A DNA stretch of 64,000 nucleotides, taken from Thermoplasma sp. Kam2015 (GTDB lineage Archaea; Thermoplasmatota; Thermoplasmata; Thermoplasmatales; Thermoplasmataceae). The translations under genes were made by a program, and so were the position numbers. The notes under the pieces were generated by a model, which saw nothing but the letters and a program-made list of their open reading frames with translations, did no database searches and had not been told where the DNA came from. Each line of letters opens with the position of its first letter. The first letter of the stretch is position 1. The stretch is taken from the NCBI RefSeq assembly GCF_003205235.1, contig NZ_QJSM01000044.1:1-64000 (forward strand), given 5' to 3'. Shown here in pieces: positions 1 to 56,551 of this stretch.

Positions 1-609
1 ATAATGTATATAAGATACAATATTAATATGGTATAATACCATATCTACCAACGAAAGAATTGAAAATTTCGGTAAGCCTCATTTTTTGACTTTGTTTAAA
101 TACCCTTACCGACATTTTCTTATATAAATAAATTATGTAGCGAAATTATATACATATATCAACTACTAGCCATTAAAAAATTATGAAAAACTCTTTAATT
201 TTATAGCTCTCACGCGCATAAATATGGGTAATGTTTTTATGGATCTTTTCGCTGCCCGCCACTATGCGGTTCAGACCGTAAAAAGGAATCGATATCTTGA
301 TAAAAGGATCGAGGATTCAAGACCATTGACCTTCAACGACCATTCCTAGCTCTCTGCACATCGATCGAACGTAGATCAACGGTACGGGATATCATAAGGA
401 CGCTACCTATGTGATATTATTCTGTCTAATATATCCCAAGGCAAGGAACAAAGCTATGCCACACATATGAGCAAAGTCCTATGAAGGGATGGTAGAATAT
501 GACCACATGGTACAGGGATGGGTGTTTTCCTGGAAAGGAATGAAGCAAATTATGATCCAACATTTTTCTTGGGAAAATTTTTAAATGAATATAGTATGGA
601 ACGGATGGT
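1..609. other. AT-rich stretch without a convincing gene
   Basis: The first 250 bases are very AT-rich with many TA steps and a short palindrome (ggtataatacc, about 29-41). The rest is of ordinary composition. I see no reading frame with the look of a protein, no tRNA and no repeat array. It is the upstream region of the unknown gene that begins at 610. Confidence 0.5.
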
Positions 610-1119
610 ATGTTCGATGACGATTTTTCCAATCTTCCGGAGAAGATCAGGGATATCGTACTGGCTTTAGACGCCGAAGAAAGAGAGATCGATCGCATCC
701 TATCTGAGGTGGAGAATGGTGAAACAGGCGAGATCGACGAAGGTAAATGGGTAAGGCTTTGGATCGATTTTCCATTTCGCCACTGGCCGTTCTGGCCTAT
801 CGCTTCCCGTTTGATCCGATCCGATGTGAACGTGGTTCCAGGGTATTACGGAATAAAAGGCGAGTGTAGCGATACGCTTCTAGTCCTTGTTGAACCGAGG
901 ATTATAGCGTTATATCCATGGGGTTGTGATCTCGAGAGAAGGTTCAGGAGGAGGATGGATGATGCAAGGAATCATCTGAATAGGTGCCCAGGCACCAGAT
1001 ACATTATATTCTGGGCATCAAACTGGGACTTCAGGGCATGGAAAAGGTATGGTGGCAGGTTCTCCAGCAGAACGGTGGTGCTTAAGCCATGGGGGTCCGC
1101 AAAGGCGTTCAGAATATGA
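610..1119 (+). CDS. Unknown protein, paralogue of the gene at 56048-56551
   Basis: A 169-residue protein of no family I recognise. It has an acidic N-terminus (MFDDDF), a Trp/Phe/Pro-rich middle (about residues 50-75), and a C-terminal block with the pattern MDxAxNxxxxCPxxRxIIF followed by W, W, Y and RF. The same pattern occurs in the same order in the 167-residue protein encoded on the other strand at 56048-56551, so the two are distant paralogues. No signal peptide or membrane span is evident, and the many Trp and Arg suggest a soluble, perhaps nucleic-acid- or protein-binding role, but that is a guess. It stands alone among decayed sequence. The ATG at 610 is preferred because the acidic start aligns with that of the paralogue. 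Confidence 0.6.
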   Translation: MFDDDFSNLPEKIRDIVLALDAEEREIDRILSEVENGETGEIDEGKWVRLWIDFPFRHWPFWPIASRLIRSDVNVVPGYYGIKGECSDTLLVLVEPRIIALYPWGCDLERRFRRRMDDARNHLNRCPGTRYIIFWASNWDFRAWKRYGGRFSSRTVVLKPWGSAKAFRI

Positions 1120-1579: not shown

Positions 1580-1858
1580 TTAGGACATTACTGCCAAATA
1601 ATCATGGACGGTGTATACTTAACCGTTTGCGGATAACGGCTGAATGGAAACGATGGGACATTCTAAAATGAATCCGTGGGTAGGGATTGGATCCACGACC
1701 AGAAATGGTCACTTTGCTTGTCTTCAATCCTGTCTCCTTGACTTCAACGGTTGACGGGAAAGACTTCTTAACCCTAGACCCTTATCATATCGATGAAGAT
1801 AAATAGCGAATGGTGTTCTTTGTTCAGCATGGGGAGGACGGAACATAAAGATTCGGCC

Positions 1859-2230
1859 ATGACCCTTCAGATAGTCGCCTATTCTGATGGTAAATCCTAT
1901 GACGGCATTAGAGCTGGCATAAGGCAATTGCCGGTGGATAAGATCGTTATACTGCATGAAGAGACTCGTTATTTATCCGCAGGATCAGATCAAATACCTT
2001 TTAGCGTATTCACAAAGCAATTATCTGATACGCTAGGGATAGACGTAGAGGAGACGAAGATCAAATCCCAGGACCTGAATGATGTATTTACTGCGGTAAG
2101 GAATGTCATAAGGAACAACGAAGGCGCCTTCGCCAATGTCCACATGAACGTTTCAGCCGCTTCGAAACTACTGGCATGCACACCAATATCTGCAGGTTTC
2201 ATTTGGAATCCAGATGTTTTATATATATGA
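1859..2230 (+). CDS. CARF-domain half of a split CARF-winged-helix regulator
   Basis: About 123 residues from the ATG at 1859 (upstream in-frame ATGs at 1793 and 1829 are possible). It has the Rossmann-like CARF layout: beta strand TLQIVAYSD, a helix, strand KIVILHEET, and the late element VSAASKLLACTPISAGFIW, which corresponds to the ligand-side loop and helix of CARF proteins. CARF domains bind cyclic oligoadenylate or related ligands. The frame ends at TGA 2228-2230 just where the CARF domain should pass into a linker, and the next frame (2214-2516) continues with the linker and a winged helix. In related regulators (Csa3-like, DUF6293-like) both parts are one chain. The break lies in a (TA)n run. 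Translation of both parts with overlap, phase variation or mutation are all possible. The Csx1-like gene follows downstream in the same direction. Confidence 0.6.
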   Translation: MTLQIVAYSDGKSYDGIRAGIRQLPVDKIVILHEETRYLSAGSDQIPFSVFTKQLSDTLGIDVEETKIKSQDLNDVFTAVRNVIRNNEGAFANVHMNVSAASKLLACTPISAGFIWNPDVLYI

Positions 2231-2516
2231 TGGTGAAATCAAAAGGTTTCCCATGTTAAAATTGGGATACAATGGGATACTCTCTGAGACAAAGATCGCC
2301 ATCCTTCGCGACCTAGCAAAAGCTGGCGGAAAGGTCAGCAGTCTCGAGTCCCTTTCGGATCTTACCGGTATCGATAAGACATTATTGAGCGAGCATATTA
2401 ACGGATCGGAGGATTCCCGAGGACTCGTTGAACTCGGGCTTGTTGAGGTTAATAGGTATTCTAGGGGAAGGCTGCAGATAGAGATCACAGCCCTCGGTAA
2501 CATCGTATTGTTATGA
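2214..2516 (+). CDS. Winged-helix half of the split CARF regulator
   Basis: A 100-residue product whose first residues (YIYDGEIKRFP) continue the CARF reading and whose residues 25-100 form a winged helix-turn-helix: helix LSETKIAILRDLAK, helix SLESLSDLTG, recognition helix DKTLLSEHING, then a wing (GLVEVN...GRLQIEIT). This is the MarR/ArsR-like arrangement found C-terminal to CARF in Csa3-type regulators. Its ATG at 2214 overlaps the end of the CARF frame by 17 bases in the +1 frame, so it may be made as a separate, translationally coupled subunit, or the pair is a single gene broken by loss of one TA unit in the run at about 2218-2227. Likely target: its own promoter or that of the adjacent Csx1-like gene (inference). 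Confidence 0.55.
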   Translation: MFYIYDGEIKRFPMLKLGYNGILSETKIAILRDLAKAGGKVSSLESLSDLTGIDKTLLSEHINGSEDSRGLVELGLVEVNRYSRGRLQIEITALGNIVLL

Positions 2517-3048: not shown

Positions 3049-3060
3049 CTTATAAATAAT
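3049..3060 (+). promoter_or_regulatory. TATA box of the Csx1-like gene
   Basis: The sequence cttataaataat lies 17-28 bases before the ATG at 3077, the distance expected for a leaderless archaeal transcript. It argues for the start at 3077 rather than at 3059. Confidence 0.55.
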
Positions 3061-3076
3061 GATATATTTTACAAGT

Positions 3077-4318
3077 ATGGAAGAAAAGAAGATACTCTTC
3101 TCCACTTGGGGCATGCCAGCGCAATGGAAGGACATAACATACACATACGATGAGATGAGCGTTCATGCTTGTACAACGCTAAAGCTCCTTTCAAAGAAAT
3201 ATGATAGAGTCATACTCTTCGTTCTCGACAGTATCGCAGATTTTAATGGAGTATCGAACTCGTCTCAATGTGGGACTTGTTATTCCCAATCCTTCAAAGA
3301 TTTCATCTACTCAGGCAGCTATAGCGATGTGATCTCTTCGATAGAGGAGCGGACTAAGAAAATGTTGGCCTGCCTTGGCATAGAGGATGCAGAGGTAATA
3401 GTGCTTCCTGCCAAGGGCAAGCCCGGCGGCAGGATGCAGTTCAATGGTGATGTCAAAGATTATCTATCGATTGCCCTGCTCTCATCCTATATCCGGATCA
3501 AAGAGGATCTCAGAAGCGCTTCGCAGATCGGCCTTGACATAACGCATGGTATAAACTTCTTGCCTACGCTGACCTTTCAGGCGGTGATGACCCTGATGTA
3601 TGCGGCCCTGATATCTGGGAATAACGAAAAAATATGGTTCAAGGTCTATAATTCAGATCCGGCAACCCCACTTGTAAATAACGTGGCCATAAACGTGATG
3701 TATGAGAGGGAGGTCTCCCATATATGCGTAGAAGGAAAGAATGTGGAAAGAGCTATCCGTACTAAAGGCGAGAAGTTCTCTGATTTATCGAGGCATTTCA
3801 ATATGGTGTACTCCAATGAAGTATATCCCCTCATCTCCACCCTCCTCAATCCTTTCCCGCTTGCAGCTGCTAAACTGTCCTCTATATCAAAGATTGATGT
3901 TCAATGGATGTTGAATGGGTGGATAGAGAGCTCCAGCATCGATCTCGGATCGGTGTTCCATGATATCCATTACGATCCCGTAGCAATCGAGCAGGCGGTT
4001 ATCGCAGACGCTTTTTTAAATAGAATGCGCGAATTCAACTGCGGGGATTGCTGCGACATTAATTTGATTGATAAAATTACGAAAGAAATATATAAAAAGG
4101 TATCACTCGAAAATTATTACATTCTAGAGCAGGAGATATCAGACATTAGAAGAAAAGCAAGCGATTATCAATGCGGTCCATGCAAACCTAATAAAAGGAT
4201 AATGGTAGCACACGGTGGCTTTCAGAAAGAATGTGTTGAGGTACAAAATGATCATGTGAAGTATTGTAATTGGGATAAAATATTCGAGTTCATCAAAACG
4301 TTCGAACGCCCTCGATGA
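3077..4318 (+). CDS. csx1: Csx1-family CARF-HEPN ribonuclease (DxTHG protein)
   Basis: 413 residues from ATG 3077. The N-terminal half is a CARF domain: it opens with a beta strand (KKILFSTWG) and carries the family signature DxTHG as DITHG at residues 154-158. The C-terminal half is helical and ends with a HEPN motif of the RX4H type (R374 to H379, in RIMVAHGGF), matching the catalytic motif of Csx1/Csm6 nucleases. In type III CRISPR immunity such proteins are switched on by cyclic oligoadenylate made by Cas10 and then cut RNA without sequence choice. Three CxxC pairs (SQCGTCYS, FNCGDCCD, YQCGPCKP) are unusual and could bind metal or form disulfides. No Cas10, effector or repeat array is present within 60 kb downstream, so in this window it is an orphan beside a CARF regulator. 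Family assignment is firm; activity is inferred. Confidence 0.85.
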   Translation: MEEKKILFSTWGMPAQWKDITYTYDEMSVHACTTLKLLSKKYDRVILFVLDSIADFNGVSNSSQCGTCYSQSFKDFIYSGSYSDVISSIEERTKKMLACLGIEDAEVIVLPAKGKPGGRMQFNGDVKDYLSIALLSSYIRIKEDLRSASQIGLDITHGINFLPTLTFQAVMTLMYAALISGNNEKIWFKVYNSDPATPLVNNVAINVMYEREVSHICVEGKNVERAIRTKGEKFSDLSRHFNMVYSNEVYPLISTLLNPFPLAAAKLSSISKIDVQWMLNGWIESSSIDLGSVFHDIHYDPVAIEQAVIADAFLNRMREFNCGDCCDINLIDKITKEIYKKVSLENYYILEQEISDIRRKASDYQCGPCKPNKRIMVAHGGFQKECVEVQNDHVKYCNWDKIFEFIKTFERPR

Positions 4319-16295: not shown

Positions 16296-17902
16296 GGGAT
16301 ATAGAGGAGATAATTAAAGAGATTGGACTTGGAAAGGAAGACTACGAGCTGTACGGTAGGTACATGGCGAAGTTGGATCTTAGCCTTCAGTCACGAGGCA
16401 GGCCAAAGGCAAAACTCATACTCGTCACCGCAATGACGCCGACACCTGCCGGAGAGGGAAAGACCACAACGACCATAGGGCTTGGCCAGGCCTTCAAAAG
16501 GCTCGGTAAGAACGTGGCAATAGCCATAAGGGAGCCTTCGCTGGGACCGTGTTTCGGCATAAAGGGAGGTGCAACAGGTGGCGGAAAGTCCAAAGTCGAG
16601 CCGAGCGACCGCATCAATCTCTTCTTTACCGGCGACTTTCCTGCAATAACGGCTGCGCACAACCTCCTGTCAGCGATGATAAACAACCACATGTACCACG
16701 GAAATGAACTGGCCCTGGATCCCAAGAGGATCACGTTTCCAAGGACCATCGATATGAATGATAGATCACTCCGCAATATCCTTGTTGGCGTCGGATCCAG
16801 GGATATGGGGGTTCTGGCAAACGACAACTTCGTGATAACGCCGGCAAGCGAGGTCATGGCGATAACCGGGCTTTCCCTCAACTATCAGGATCTGAAGAAC
16901 AGGCTATCAAAGATACTCGCCGGCTTCACAAACAAGAACAAGCCTGTATTCGCAGGCGATCTGAAGGCGGAGGGGTCTATGGCGGCACTTCTCAGGGATG
17001 CGCTGAAGCCGAACCTTGTGCAAACCACAGAGGGCGTCCCAGCGTTTGTCCACACGGGGCCGTTTGGAAACATCGCTCATGGAACGTCAAGCCTGGTTGC
17101 AGACAAGATCGCAATGAACCTGTTCGATTACGTCATAACGGAGGCCGGCTTCGGTTCAGATCTGGGAGCTGAAAAGTTCTTCAACCTCGCCTCAAGGATC
17201 GGCAACCTTCCGATAAATGCCGTCGTGCTTGTTGCCACCATAAGGGCAATAAAGCACCATGGTGGGAGCAAAAAGGAGGGCGAAGACGTCGATGCCGTTA
17301 AGATCGGATCAAAGAACCTGATCAGGCATGTGCAGAACATAAGGAGGTTCGGAATCGATCCTGTCGTAGCCATAAACCGCTTCCCTACTGATACTGATGC
17401 TGAAATAAGGACTCTTGGCGAGATCCTGGATTCGAACGGCATAAAGTGGGCCCTATCGGAGGTGTTCGCAAAGGGAGGCGAAGGCGGCATCGATCTGGCC
17501 AACAAGGTGCTCGCATCCATCGGAGACTACGAGATAAAGCGCACCTATGATTTGAAGGACGACATACGCACAAAGATAGAGAAGATAGCGAAATACGTTT
17601 ACGGAGCAGACGGCGTGATCTTTGAGAAGAAGGCCCTCACCGATATGAAGAAGGCAGAGGAGATCATGGAGAATCCATACGTGTGCATGGCCAAGACGCA
17701 GTACTCATTCAGCGATGATGCCTCACTGCTGAACGATCCGCATGGCTTCACCGTGAAGGTTCAGTCCATGAACATATCTTCCGGTGCGGGCTTCGTTGTT
17801 CCAATACTCGGTGAGATCATGACAATGCCTGGCCTTCCAAAGCATCCGGCTGCGGAGAACATCGATTTAACAGACTCTGGAGAGATAACCGGACTCTTCT
17901 GA
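16292..17902 (+). CDS. fhs: Formate-tetrahydrofolate ligase
   Basis: 536 residues, near the usual 550. The P-loop TPAGEGKTTTT is at about 50-60, followed by REPSLGPCFGIKGGATGGG, the folate/formate site signature. It joins formate and THF using ATP to give 10-formyl-THF, or runs in reverse to make ATP. In this operon with the formiminotransferase and cyclodeaminase, the reverse direction in histidine breakdown is plausible (inference). No cyclohydrolase (FolD) gene is in the neighbourhood. Ends in GEITGLF, the common C-terminus of the family. Confidence 0.96.
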   Translation: MRDIEEIIKEIGLGKEDYELYGRYMAKLDLSLQSRGRPKAKLILVTAMTPTPAGEGKTTTTIGLGQAFKRLGKNVAIAIREPSLGPCFGIKGGATGGGKSKVEPSDRINLFFTGDFPAITAAHNLLSAMINNHMYHGNELALDPKRITFPRTIDMNDRSLRNILVGVGSRDMGVLANDNFVITPASEVMAITGLSLNYQDLKNRLSKILAGFTNKNKPVFAGDLKAEGSMAALLRDALKPNLVQTTEGVPAFVHTGPFGNIAHGTSSLVADKIAMNLFDYVITEAGFGSDLGAEKFFNLASRIGNLPINAVVLVATIRAIKHHGGSKKEGEDVDAVKIGSKNLIRHVQNIRRFGIDPVVAINRFPTDTDAEIRTLGEILDSNGIKWALSEVFAKGGEGGIDLANKVLASIGDYEIKRTYDLKDDIRTKIEKIAKYVYGADGVIFEKKALTDMKKAEEIMENPYVCMAKTQYSFSDDASLLNDPHGFTVKVQSMNISSGAGFVVPILGEIMTMPGLPKHPAAENIDLTDSGEITGLF

Positions 17903-18046: not shown

Positions 18047-18895
18047 ATGGCAAAGGGAACAATAAAGACAAATACACCGCCGCCTGCTCCGGTTATTGCG
18101 CCACCAGGCAAATCGACGAAGTACAAGGTTAAGTATACAATAACCGTTATGAGCGGCAAGGGAGGTGTTGGAAAATCCACCGTGGCCGTTAATCTGGCCG
18201 TATCTCTGGCAAAGAGAGGGCTGAAGGTCGGCCTGATAGACGCAGACATAAACGGCCCAGACGACCCCAAGCTGCTGGGCGTTTCTGATCTGAAGCTCTA
18301 TGCAGATGAGGAGGGTATAATACCGGCTGAGACGAGATATGGAGTGCGCGTGGTATCAATGGGATTCCTGATCCCCACTGAAGATACCCCAATAATATGG
18401 CGCGGATCGTTGATGCACAAGGCCATACAGCAGTTTCTGGAGGACGTCAACTGGAAGGACACGGACATCGTGGTTCTGGACATGCCTCCTGGAACCGGCG
18501 ATGTTGCCCTCAGCGTGGCGCAGCTCATCCCTGAATCCAACGGTGTTGTCATCGTTGTGACGCCTCAGGATGTCGCGCTTCTGGATGCAAGGAAGGCCAT
18601 AAACTTCGCAAAACAGTTAAAGCTGCCAGTTCTTGGAATAATCGAAAACATGAGCGGTTTCGTATGCCCGCACTGCGGCAATGTTACCTATATATTCAAG
18701 AACGGGGGCGGAGAGAGATCAGCAAAGGAATACAATCTGCCGTTCCTTGGAAAAATACCGCTTATTCCAGAGATCGCTGATAACGGAGATAAGGGGATAC
18801 CTGCCGTCGAGATAAACGACAAGATAAAAGAGATATTCGACAGTATAGTCGATCAAATACTCAAAGAAGCACAGATAGAGAACATAAAACAGTGA
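18047..18895 (+). CDS. Mrp/NBP35-type P-loop ATPase, Fe-S cluster carrier
   Basis: 282 residues. Deviant Walker A GKGGVGKST at about 36-44, switch DADINGPDDP at 65-74, and a CPHC pair near residue 206 that holds a bridging 4Fe-4S cluster between two subunits. The first 30 residues are a Pro-rich lead. It loads Fe-S clusters onto apo-proteins in the cytoplasm. One oddity: the family usually reads DADIxGPSxP; here Ser is replaced by Asp. Single gene, convergent with the 23S rRNA gene, separated by a T-rich terminator. Confidence 0.93.
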   Translation: MAKGTIKTNTPPPAPVIAPPGKSTKYKVKYTITVMSGKGGVGKSTVAVNLAVSLAKRGLKVGLIDADINGPDDPKLLGVSDLKLYADEEGIIPAETRYGVRVVSMGFLIPTEDTPIIWRGSLMHKAIQQFLEDVNWKDTDIVVLDMPPGTGDVALSVAQLIPESNGVVIVVTPQDVALLDARKAINFAKQLKLPVLGIIENMSGFVCPHCGNVTYIFKNGGGERSAKEYNLPFLGKIPLIPEIADNGDKGIPAVEINDKIKEIFDSIVDQILKEAQIENIKQ

Positions 18896-18967
18896 AAACT
18901 CATTTATTTTATACTTAATTTTTAAATTTACATAGCTATCGCTAATCATCTTAGATTTAAGGACCAA

Positions 18968-19004
18968 CACAAAAAAACTATAAAAACAATAAAAAACAAA
19001 AATC
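18968..19004 (-). terminator. T-rich terminator of the 23S rRNA gene
   Basis: On the minus strand, directly after the rRNA processing stem, there are several runs of five to seven T (complement of aaaaaaa, aaaaa and aaaaaa runs). Oligo-T runs are the standard termination signal of archaeal RNA polymerase. Confidence 0.6.
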
Positions 19005-19006
19005 AA

Positions 19007-19015
19007 ACACGCTTA
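19007..19015 (-). repeat. 3' arm of the 23S rRNA processing stem
   Basis: The sequence acacgctta (plus strand) is the reverse complement of taagcgtgt at 22037-22045. The two 9-base arms flank the 23S gene and can pair in the precursor. Inside them the segments gaattc...agac (about 19017-19032) and gtctcatcaaaattc (21981-21995) extend the pairing with a few mismatches and bulges. This is the expected position of the stem cut by the archaeal splicing endonuclease. Confidence 0.7.
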
Positions 19016-19039
19016 TGAATTCGACCAGACGAGAATTTA

Positions 19040-21965
<2,926 letters not shown>

Positions 21966-47070: not shown

Positions 47071-47142
47071 GGGCCGGTAGATCAGCGGTAGATCGCCTGC
47101 TTCGCAAGCAGGAGGCCTCGGGTTCAAACCCCGACCGGTCCA
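47071..47142 (+). tRNA. tRNA-Ala (anticodon CGC), island insertion target
   Basis: 72 bases; acceptor stem gggccgg with ccggtcc (one G-T pair), D arm with ggtag, anticodon stem cctgc/gcagg, loop ttcgcaa giving CGC, T arm with ggttcaaaccc, discriminator A. CCA not encoded, no intron. Its 3' end (tcaaaccccgaccggtcca) is repeated three times downstream at 52701-52714, 53645-53663 and 54391-54411, marking it as an integration site. Confidence 0.95.
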
Positions 47143-47172
47143 CTTAAATTACTAATCGAATACTTTTTTTAT

Positions 47173-52675: not shown

Positions 52676-52680
52676 CTTGG

Positions 52681-52714
52681 TATTCGCTTAAAACATTAAT
52701 CAAATCCCGATCCA
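52681..52714 (+). repeat. Island direct repeat R1 (att-like, 4-base deletion)
   Basis: Starts tattcgcttaaaacatt and ends caaatcccgatcca; compared with R2 and R3 it lacks ccgg in the tRNA-derived part. It begins 5 bases after the stop of the PD-(D/E)xK-like gene. Confidence 0.8.
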
Positions 52715-53607: not shown

Positions 53608-53625
53608 ATATGTCTAAAGAATTAG

Positions 53626-53663
53626 TATTCGCTTAAAACATTGATCAAACCCCGACCGGTCCA
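53626..53663 (+). repeat. Island direct repeat R2 (att-like)
   Basis: 38 bases: tattcgcttaaaacattga followed by the tRNA-Ala 3' end tcaaaccccgaccggtcca. This copy has the longest perfect match (19 bases) to the tRNA gene. Confidence 0.85.
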
Positions 53664-53774
53664 TTGTGAATTCCAATTCTCTCATATTCCATCCACAACT
53701 TTTCCTTCTGCCTGCTGCTTACCTAACTTCTTGATTTCTGATATACGAGCATAGAAAAGCGTTACTGGATTTGA

Positions 53775-54373: not shown

Positions 54374-54411
54374 TATTCGCTTAAAACATTAAACAAATCC
54401 CGACCGGTCCA
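54374..54411 (+). repeat. Island direct repeat R3 (att-like, right boundary)
   Basis: 38 bases: tattcgcttaaaacattaa then acaaatcccgaccggtcca. It is the outermost copy and the probable right end of the island. Confidence 0.85.
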
Positions 54412-55489
54412 CTGATAGCAATCGAATTAGTTTATCTTGTTAATGAATTACGATATGATAGTATATAAACTTCTGTTGCAGTAATCGATTATGGTGATTT
54501 CATTTGATGCTAGAATAAGAAATAAGACTGCCACAAAACCAATTTTACGTTCAAAGCGCTCAGATGTATTCCATAAAGATGTTTCCGAATTCATAACTGG
54601 AGTCACGCCATAGCCTGCAGTTATCAACTATAGTGCCTTTTTATGCTGATTTGATATTATCATTAGCAACGGCTCTGATAATCGAATGGAAATGCATTTT
54701 GAACTACCTTCTTCCTATAAGCTTTGCCTGCGAAGGTGACGGCCATAAACACATTAATAGAAGCAGTCATAATTAAGTCATATTGAAATTCAAGACTATT
54801 TAAAGGTATCATCATTATTTAATTTTTAATGTCTTCAATGATAAATTACCAGAGATCGATGACCTCAAAAAAACTCCTTGCTTGGATATATCTTTAAAAT
54901 TTTTTTCTCTGACTGGGTGGTATCTTTTCACAGCTTGCCTCCTCTGATCGATTTCAGTCCATTCATGGCATTTGCGTGCATCTAATAAGGCTTAAATTTT
55001 CTCTTTGCCCATCGTTAAATTCTTGATGTGCGTCCATCTATACCTTTTTGCGCTTGAGGCTTTCTTTATCCATGCCTATCTGATTCATTATGCATTGTTC
55101 TGCGACCACATCATCACTTTAATTTTTCTTAACCACAGACGATACATGTTCCAAGGATGATCATGGATGTTTGCCAGTCCATCCTTATCAGGAGATCCAG
55201 GGCCTTTATCAAAGGAGTTATTCTGATCGAAGACGGCCATGCTGAGCTATGATCACTTTAAATAAACTGAATAAGTGTATGGTGCCGGAAGGCTAGCAAA
55301 ATCGAATACTAATATTCATTTTTAGTATATTTATGATTATATGTAAATGATTAATGGAAGAGACCTAAGAAAGCAATTCTAAAGCCAAACGATCGAAAAT
55401 ATATCCCTGACCTCAGACATGACTTTGCAGTTTCTGCAAAGTCTTCTCTGACCATGATCGACTGTTTTCGATCGAAAAATCCCATGTAT
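54412..55489. other. Gene-poor, AT-rich region right of the island
   Basis: About 1.1 kb with stop codons in all frames and no recognisable gene. A 50-codon minus-strand frame starting MAVFDQNNSFDKGPG (about 55087-55239) is the longest notable one, without a known relative. The sequence looks like eroded mobile or intergenic DNA and precedes the repeat field. Confidence 0.4.
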
Positions 55490-55544
55490 AGTAGGGATAT
55501 AAAGTAGGGATATTAAAAAATATATCCCTCCAATATCCCTCATA

Positions 55545-55985
55545 TATCCTATTGAAAATACGGCTTCCGCAATAAATGGTGTGGTAACGCAGGGATATTT
55601 AGGGATATATTCCAATATCCCTCATTTATCCCCTTGAAAATACGGCATCAGCATTAAAAAAGTATGGTAACTTGGGGATATTCAGGGATATATTTCAATA
55701 TCCCCAATATATCCCCTTGAAAATACTGCGTCTGTATTAAAAAGTATTGTAATTTAGGGATATATTCCAATATCCCCAAATTGATGCAATTTCGTCGCCA
55801 GATCACGCATTACCAAAGGGATAAATGCAATCAATAATTTATATCCCTCATTTATCCCCTTGAAAATACGGCTTCCGCGATGAAAGGTATGGTATCTAAG
55901 GATCTATCTTGTTACCATACCATTTATCCCATTGAAAAAAGGGCTTCGGAAGAAAAAATATCGTTTATCCCATTGATAATAGGGC
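55545..55985. repeat. Field of about 82-bp degenerate repeats with hairpins
   Basis: The core ttgaaaatacgg(c) begins at 55552, 55634, 55717 (actg variant), 55860, and shorter versions at 55932 and 55973; steps are 82, 83, 143, 72 and 41 bases. Each of the first units contains, in order, tatccccttgaaaatacggc, a rtatggtaac box, and an agggatat...atatccct inverted repeat. The inverted repeat (e.g. 55602-55622) would form a 7-bp hairpin. The last units are truncated. This is neither a CRISPR array (units and spacers are not distinct) nor a simple microsatellite. It might be a replication-origin-like or protein-binding iteron array, or a hairpin RNA. It lies just 3' of the paralogous gene 56048-56551. 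Confidence 0.7.
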
Positions 55986-56047
55986 TCGGGCATTGAAATT
56001 ATCATTCATATGATCGATAAATGTATGCCTTGTATCGATTGAACTGT

Positions 56048-56551
56048 TCACGGCCTCAACACTGAGTATGTTGATAGAAAGAGCTTCAGATACACGTTGT
56101 ATCCCCTGAACCTGTTCCTGTAATTGCCCCAAACCGAAGTTGACCAAAATGGGCCATAGAATATGATATCTCTCAACACAGGGCAACCCTCTGCATAGTT
56201 CAGAGCCTTATCCATGATGGTATTTACGGGATAATGGAATGGTAAGCGTTCCAGCGCCCACAGATCCGATTTGGGATAGAAAAGGAAGACGAGCAACGTC
56301 CTATGGCATCCACCTTTCCCATCTCCAGGGATCACGGCTATCTCCTCCGCCGATCGATTATCTGATCCAGCAGATCTGGATGCGCTTGCATCACCGAGTA
56401 TCTTCTCGTATATGCGATCGAGTATATTGCTGTCGAATAGGCGGCGCCAGTAATCGTCGCCATCCAAACCTCTGAAGAATTCATCGATGTAATCGTCCAT
56501 ACTATCGAGTATACCCATGACGTTCCTGACGGTTGCGGAAGCCCTTACCAT
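56048..56551 (-). CDS. Unknown protein, paralogue of the gene at 610-1119
   Basis: 167 residues, no known family. The N-terminal part is helical and acidic (MDDYIDEFFRGLDGDDY), followed by a Ser/Arg-rich linker, strand RTLLVFLFYP, and the C-terminal block MDKALNYAEGCPVLRDIIF with later W, W, Y and RF, shared with the first gene of the window. The start could be at the ATG of MGILDSMDDY, about 12 codons in, which would match the paralogue better. Its 3' end points into the 82-bp repeat field. No membrane span or signal. Function unknown. Confidence 0.6.
   Translation of the reverse strand: MVRASATVRNVMGILDSMDDYIDEFFRGLDGDDYWRRLFDSNILDRIYEKILGDASASRSAGSDNRSAEEIAVIPGDGKGGCHRTLLVFLFYPKSDLWALERLPFHYPVNTIMDKALNYAEGCPVLRDIIFYGPFWSTSVWGNYRNRFRGYNVYLKLFLSTYSVLRP

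Follow-up and report, generated by a model that had tools for sequence, protein, structure and literature searches.

A field of palindromic boxes in Thermoplasma sp. Kam2015 as an orphan CRISPR-boundary copy and candidate DNA-binding array

A non-coding box field of about 630 bp (positions 55392–56017) in the window, by which we mean the whole 64,000-nucleotide stretch analysed (contig NZ_QJSM01000044.1, C44), is well supported by sequence comparison as an orphan copy of a box field that borders a CRISPR array elsewhere in the same genome. At about even odds (roughly 0.5), such an orphan CRISPR-boundary field would constitute a multi-site DNA-binding array, operator- or insulator-like in character, with a genome-specific box code. 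The oldest (far) end of CRISPR arrays is usually taken as passive; if this reading is true, a species-specific box array of conserved position at that end, with a duplicate at a remote locus, would point to a putative DNA-binding factor that organises, insulates or preserves CRISPR loci in one archaeal lineage.

Repeat Units and Boxes of the Field

The limits of the field are set by homology to its second copy. An earlier note on this DNA had placed a field of hairpin-bearing 82-bp repeats at 55545–55985; the field is real, and these limits are too narrow. The units that the note had described (at least four with ordered boxes) are found in register at 55531, 55613, 55696 and 55839, with steps of 82, 83 and 143 bp, the last of which corresponds, as had been proposed, to a unit carrying an insertion. 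The two truncated units that it had also listed start at 55917 and 55958 (55917–55985, plus strand, 41 bp apart), and TRF reports a period of 83 with 2.9 copies over 55529–55763 (score 307).

The hexamer GGGATA/TATCCC occurs 20 times in the field versus 0.44 expected, and 44 times over the remaining 63.4 kb of the window (Poisson P ~2e-26 for the field). These boxes are mostly ordered as four-box dyads (+,+,−,−) with start spacings of 10–13, 14–16 and 11 bp and conserved linkers between them, namely cluster 0 (55494–55539; spacings 13, 16, 11), cluster 1 (55592–55632; 10, 14, 11) and cluster 2 (55675–55715; 10, 14, 11), with a partial cluster 3 (+,−) at 55757–55776 (spacing 14). Eleven close neighbour pairs obey a single grammar (++ at 10–13, +− at 14–16 and −− at 11). 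The GGGATAT...ATATCCC dyad of the earlier note is also borne out, its 30-mer having two exact matches versus none expected. A linker box, TTGAAAATACGGC, lies at 55552–55564 (plus strand) and again at 55634, 55717 and 55860, with decayed forms at 55932 and 55973; three of its occurrences in the field are exact and one has one mismatch, and with up to two mismatches it is found at 10 sites in the window versus 1.4 expected, a number reached by 0 of 100 shuffles. The count of TATGGTAAC is at chance level (12 versus 9.9), yet this box recurs in register. The field further contains a core motif, ATGACTTTGCAGTTTCT (55419–55435, plus strand), which forms the left part of a hairpin at 55413–55451, a hairpin at 55806–55870 (arms 55806–55827 and 55849–55870), and a hairpin GATGAAAGGTATGGTA / TACCATACCATTTATC at 55879–55928, the arms of which are unchanged in both copies.

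Dyad boxes repeated at helical spacing, as expected of an operator array, are thus present, and among the three roles that the earlier note had offered (replication origin, partition site, or binding array of a regulator), the last fits this box grammar best. In plasmid parC, tubC and rep iterons, short boxes with dyads recur roughly once per helical turn, and the field resembles these iteron, operator and centromere arrays in both box repetition and dyads. Unlike these arrays, it has no gene for a binding, replication or partition protein next to it (no par-type gene adjoins it among the proteins scanned), exists as two remote chromosomal copies and has a CRISPR location. A replication origin or plasmid-type partition site, to which the iterated dyad boxes do bear a resemblance, is very improbable. 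The field matches no plasmid or phage sequence; viral or plasmid iterons are ruled out on this ground, and three matches of the hairpin to viral contigs trace to one phage coding sequence and are a chance match. Archaeal origins carry ORB boxes (CTTCCAGTGGAAAC...GGGG) near orc1/cdc6 (PMC4153887). An origin finds no support here: the field contains no ORB-like box, the orc1/cdc6 genes are on contigs C21 and C18 instead of C44, and GC skew does not turn at the field. A caveat is that beside those orc1/cdc6 genes, too, no canonical ORB was seen.

The Second Genomic Copy and Its CRISPR Locus

Across the genome (1.79 Mb, 63 contigs; one of its proteins is 99% identical to a protein of Thermoplasma sp. 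KMA_Bin19, in keeping with Thermoplasma), the sole other full copy of the field lies at 17833–18294 of contig C42 and is 88–89% identical to the window copy in each BLAST segment. A search for the boxes outside the window, as the earlier note had advised, therefore yields one further genomic copy and no plasmid match, and the units are not scattered through the genome, so that a common dispersed repeat is ruled out. REP/BIME and MITE-type repeats are dispersed, palindromic and non-coding; the units of the field are likewise palindromic and non-coding, but occupy two loci per genome.

The C42 copy is situated between cas6 (start at C42:17213) and CRISPR array 2 (C42:18302–20267), the repeat of which is GTTTCAGAAATACTAGTTAGTATGGAAG in crRNA sense, and the cas set is of type III-A (Csm1, Cas6, Cas1, a Csx14/Crn1-like protein and Csx1). 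Contig C44 follows C42, as judged from a 32-nt overlap and from Csx1 (CARF-HEPN), which belongs to this type III CRISPR locus, at 3059–4318 of the window (plus strand). The leader of array 2 continues from C42 into window positions 1–143 and is 99% identical to that of array 1; the two arrays share this leader, which is located at the high-coordinate end of each. The field, on the other side of array 2, therefore abuts its leader-distal end, and a variant end repeat (18302) is found on the field side only. The field is like a CRISPR leader in being non-coding DNA beside an array with motifs for proteins, but differs in its leader-distal position, and a leader is ruled out by the true leader common to both arrays. 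Part of a cas6 promoter kept across genera is also ruled out, as no comparable field was found in relatives within the 1.5 kb that immediately precede cas6. The window copy lies 55 kb from array 2. No CRISPR repeat occurs in the window within 8 mismatches, the 82-bp diverged units themselves not constituting a CRISPR array, and no decayed CRISPR repeat above background adjoins the window copy.

Alignment with C42 over 55392–56017 gives 80–100% identity, mostly above 85% (one 40-column window is at 80%), with 36 substitutions in 460 shared columns and a 165-bp gap by which the unit number differs between copies. Beyond the field, identity is absent to the right and falls to about 57% in the left flank (54990–55391, homologous to C42:17400–17832), the local alignment score of which is 59 versus 21 ± 2.9 for shuffles; a left-flank pseudogene is ruled out, as no long frame is present. 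Next to the field is an orphan gene without a Pfam match (56048–56551, minus strand), its 3′ end facing the field. As the earlier note had recognised, this gene has one paralogue in the window (610–1119, plus strand; BLASTP E 3e-9), which is the first gene past the array 2 leader; the two are old paralogues with 31–32% identity. The contrast between field and flank, together with the age of these neighbouring genes, suggests an old duplication after which selection or gene conversion preserved the likeness of the field. Retention of identity in the field while the left flank decayed counts for a binding array, although gene conversion, rather than selection, could also account for such high identity between the copies.

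Several further features of these loci were observed. Distant relatives of the orphan family occur in genomes G049 (near a tubulin/FtsZ-family gene) and G009 (near a GmrSD restriction gene). At the leader-distal end of array 1, C42:7683–7732 contains AGGGATAAATGCAA and two TGTTGCAT boxes, which are of the type found in a Thermoplasma volcanium-like genome (see below), and matches the window field over 14 nt; this is suggestive of a remnant field at the far end of array 1. Spacers are duplicated inside both arrays (C42:7733–8839 and 18302–20267), beginning TACTTACAAGG..., ATGTGGAAGG... and AGGTGAAAAA.... Beside the CRISPR leader, at window positions 1793–2516, an ORF with an HFX_2341-type CARF domain (Pfam) overlaps a winged-helix-looking ORF, the pair reading as one CARF-HTH regulator split by a frameshift; no homologue of these ORFs was found in the T. 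volcanium-like genome.

A Counterpart in a T. volcanium-like Genome

Ten relatives carry arrays with the repeat type seen here, and among the 13 leader-distal flanks inspected, a box field far above shuffles is present in one, that of the array adjoining cas6 in the T. volcanium-like genome G004. The other 12 arrays, including the second array of G004, have no comparable field, which counts against the binding-array model. In the G004 field the hexamer GTTGCA/TGCAAC occurs 36 times, for the most part within GTTGCAAC palindromes, and the clusters are 65–71 bp apart; in a whole-genome scan this field ranks first among non-CRISPR fields (score 77.6 versus 29.9 for the 99.9th percentile) and scores well above the CRISPR arrays themselves. 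A further GTTGCA field in G004, at 907 kb, is 95% identical over 401 bp and is situated inside a glycosyltransferase cluster near a tyrosine-recombinase-like fragment, and a third copy is a 95-bp fragment at 1,097,569. Solitary CRISPR repeats also occur in G004 at C1:700668–700850 and 1095547, a 93%-identical leader copy following 700668.

The box differs entirely between the two species but, within each genome, is common to both remote copies, as co-evolution of the box with a trans-acting reader would predict. The only sequence common to the fields of both species is the core motif ATGAC(T/C)TTGCAGTTT(C/T)T, and of the two sites genome-wide in G004 within two mismatches of this motif, one is in its CRISPR field.

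The same decayed CRISPR repeat terminates all three G004 copies, none of which extends past its outer edge. On the left, each of the two fields is bordered by a further decayed repeat, with 7 and 9 mismatches out of 28; outside the arrays, the whole genome has only 6 and 25 sites of this kind, respectively. These shared ends, the recombinase-like fragment near the 907-kb copy and the varying unit number in Kam2015 (the 165-bp gap) are consistent with a passenger, that is, CRISPR-end DNA (field plus terminal repeat) spread by recombination or as a non-autonomous mobile element and functionless now. This origin is unlikely, if worth keeping in mind: there are only two or three copies per genome, neither terminal inverted repeats nor target duplications are seen by eye, the field occupies the same position in two species, and the sharp identity step next to a decayed flank points to constraint or concerted evolution.

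Protein Binding, RNA Structure and Related Systems

The core motif ATGACTTTGCAGTTTCT is also found at C20:114097 and in genomes G009 and G019. At the C20 locus, 11 GTATTG/CAATAC boxes lie upstream of a gene for a 175-aa HTH protein, and in related genera the core motif precedes HTH-coiled-coil genes with box arrays in steps of 10–13 bp (TACGG, GTCCG, TTCAA). The HTH-coiled-coil loci L117, L119, L120, L122 and L123 (in G019, G045, G011, G104 and G106, respectively) have 5–7 boxes about 360–550 bp upstream; each array is matched by 0 of 200 shuffles, and the box sequence varies by lineage. Since box arrays stand ahead of HTH genes at loci sharing the motif, protein binding is the natural reading of the boxes, and we infer that the field too is bound by a protein. 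Against this model, no HTH gene is found beside the window or C42 field, the only HTH-coiled-coil homologue of the genome being at C20. No decayed CRISPR repeats were found at the edges of the C20 field or of the HTH-coiled-coil loci tested. Several of the HTH-coiled-coil loci adjoin genes resembling those for surface-glycan biosynthesis.

In the proposed mechanism, the field has its home next to cas6, where the type III-A array ends on the side away from its leader, and the window copy is an orphan. Each unit would present two GGGATA half-site pairs in dyad order at a spacing of about one helical turn, and a putative dimeric or tetrameric sequence-specific protein would read one box code at both loci. 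The nucleoprotein array at the CRISPR locus may then separate the end of the CRISPR array from the cas6–csm promoter as a boundary, or serve there as an operator, and the window copy may be a second, remote binding locus or the relic of one. More tentatively, a previously undescribed cis element of Thermoplasma CRISPR loci may be envisaged: an extended field in which palindromic boxes lie at the oldest array end between decayed repeats, with a box code that turns over completely between species but is identical in remote copies of one genome. A DNA-binding protein co-evolving with this code would read it, marking or insulating the CRISPR locus and a second locus. No description of such a field was found in the open-licence literature.

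The hairpin at 55806–55870 counts against the binding-array model. Relative to C42 it has four paired changes that alter box letters and leave the arms complementary, so that complementarity is kept where the boxes are lost, which boxes alone would not predict. This may instead reflect a structured non-coding RNA under selection for pairing, for example a 3′ hairpin array ending a minus-strand pre-crRNA (in the window, the mRNA of the orphan gene). Shuffled sequences fold far less well than either copy (z −8.0 and −5.4 for the minus strand of the two copies), and the copy-to-copy substitutions keep the structure (consensus energy −122.7 versus −100.8 ± 7.9, with 0 of 150 random placements as good), with 4 double compensatory changes versus a mean of 0.8 and with more G–U pairs on the minus strand. 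However, both strands fold well and the T. volcanium-like field prefers the opposite one (z −6.6 versus −3.4); all four compensatory changes are in the one hairpin and may represent a single template-switch event; perfect palindromes such as GTTGCAAC leave no room for a loop; and Rfam has no match to the field at the gathering threshold. An RNA role, the main functional alternative to protein binding, is unlikely.

Returning to the DNA-binding array, a parallel within CRISPR biology is offered by the operator sites that Csa3-type (CARF-HTH) regulators have in CRISPR-cas promoters (PMC4333418), a further CARF protein being MM_0565 (PMC7465815). The likeness is that sequence-specific regulators would act on genes of a CRISPR locus; unlike those sites, the field strings about 20 boxes along 630 bp, lies at the far array end and has a remote copy.

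To the left of the field in the window, a tRNA-Ala(CGC) gene lies at 47071–47143, and a single short repeat then occurs three times (52680–52710, 53623–53666 and 54374–54414), with the tRNA 3′ end included, att-like, in two of the copies. Between these elements are a gene for a type III restriction enzyme and small genes, and the same arrangement is found at C42:4508–5739.
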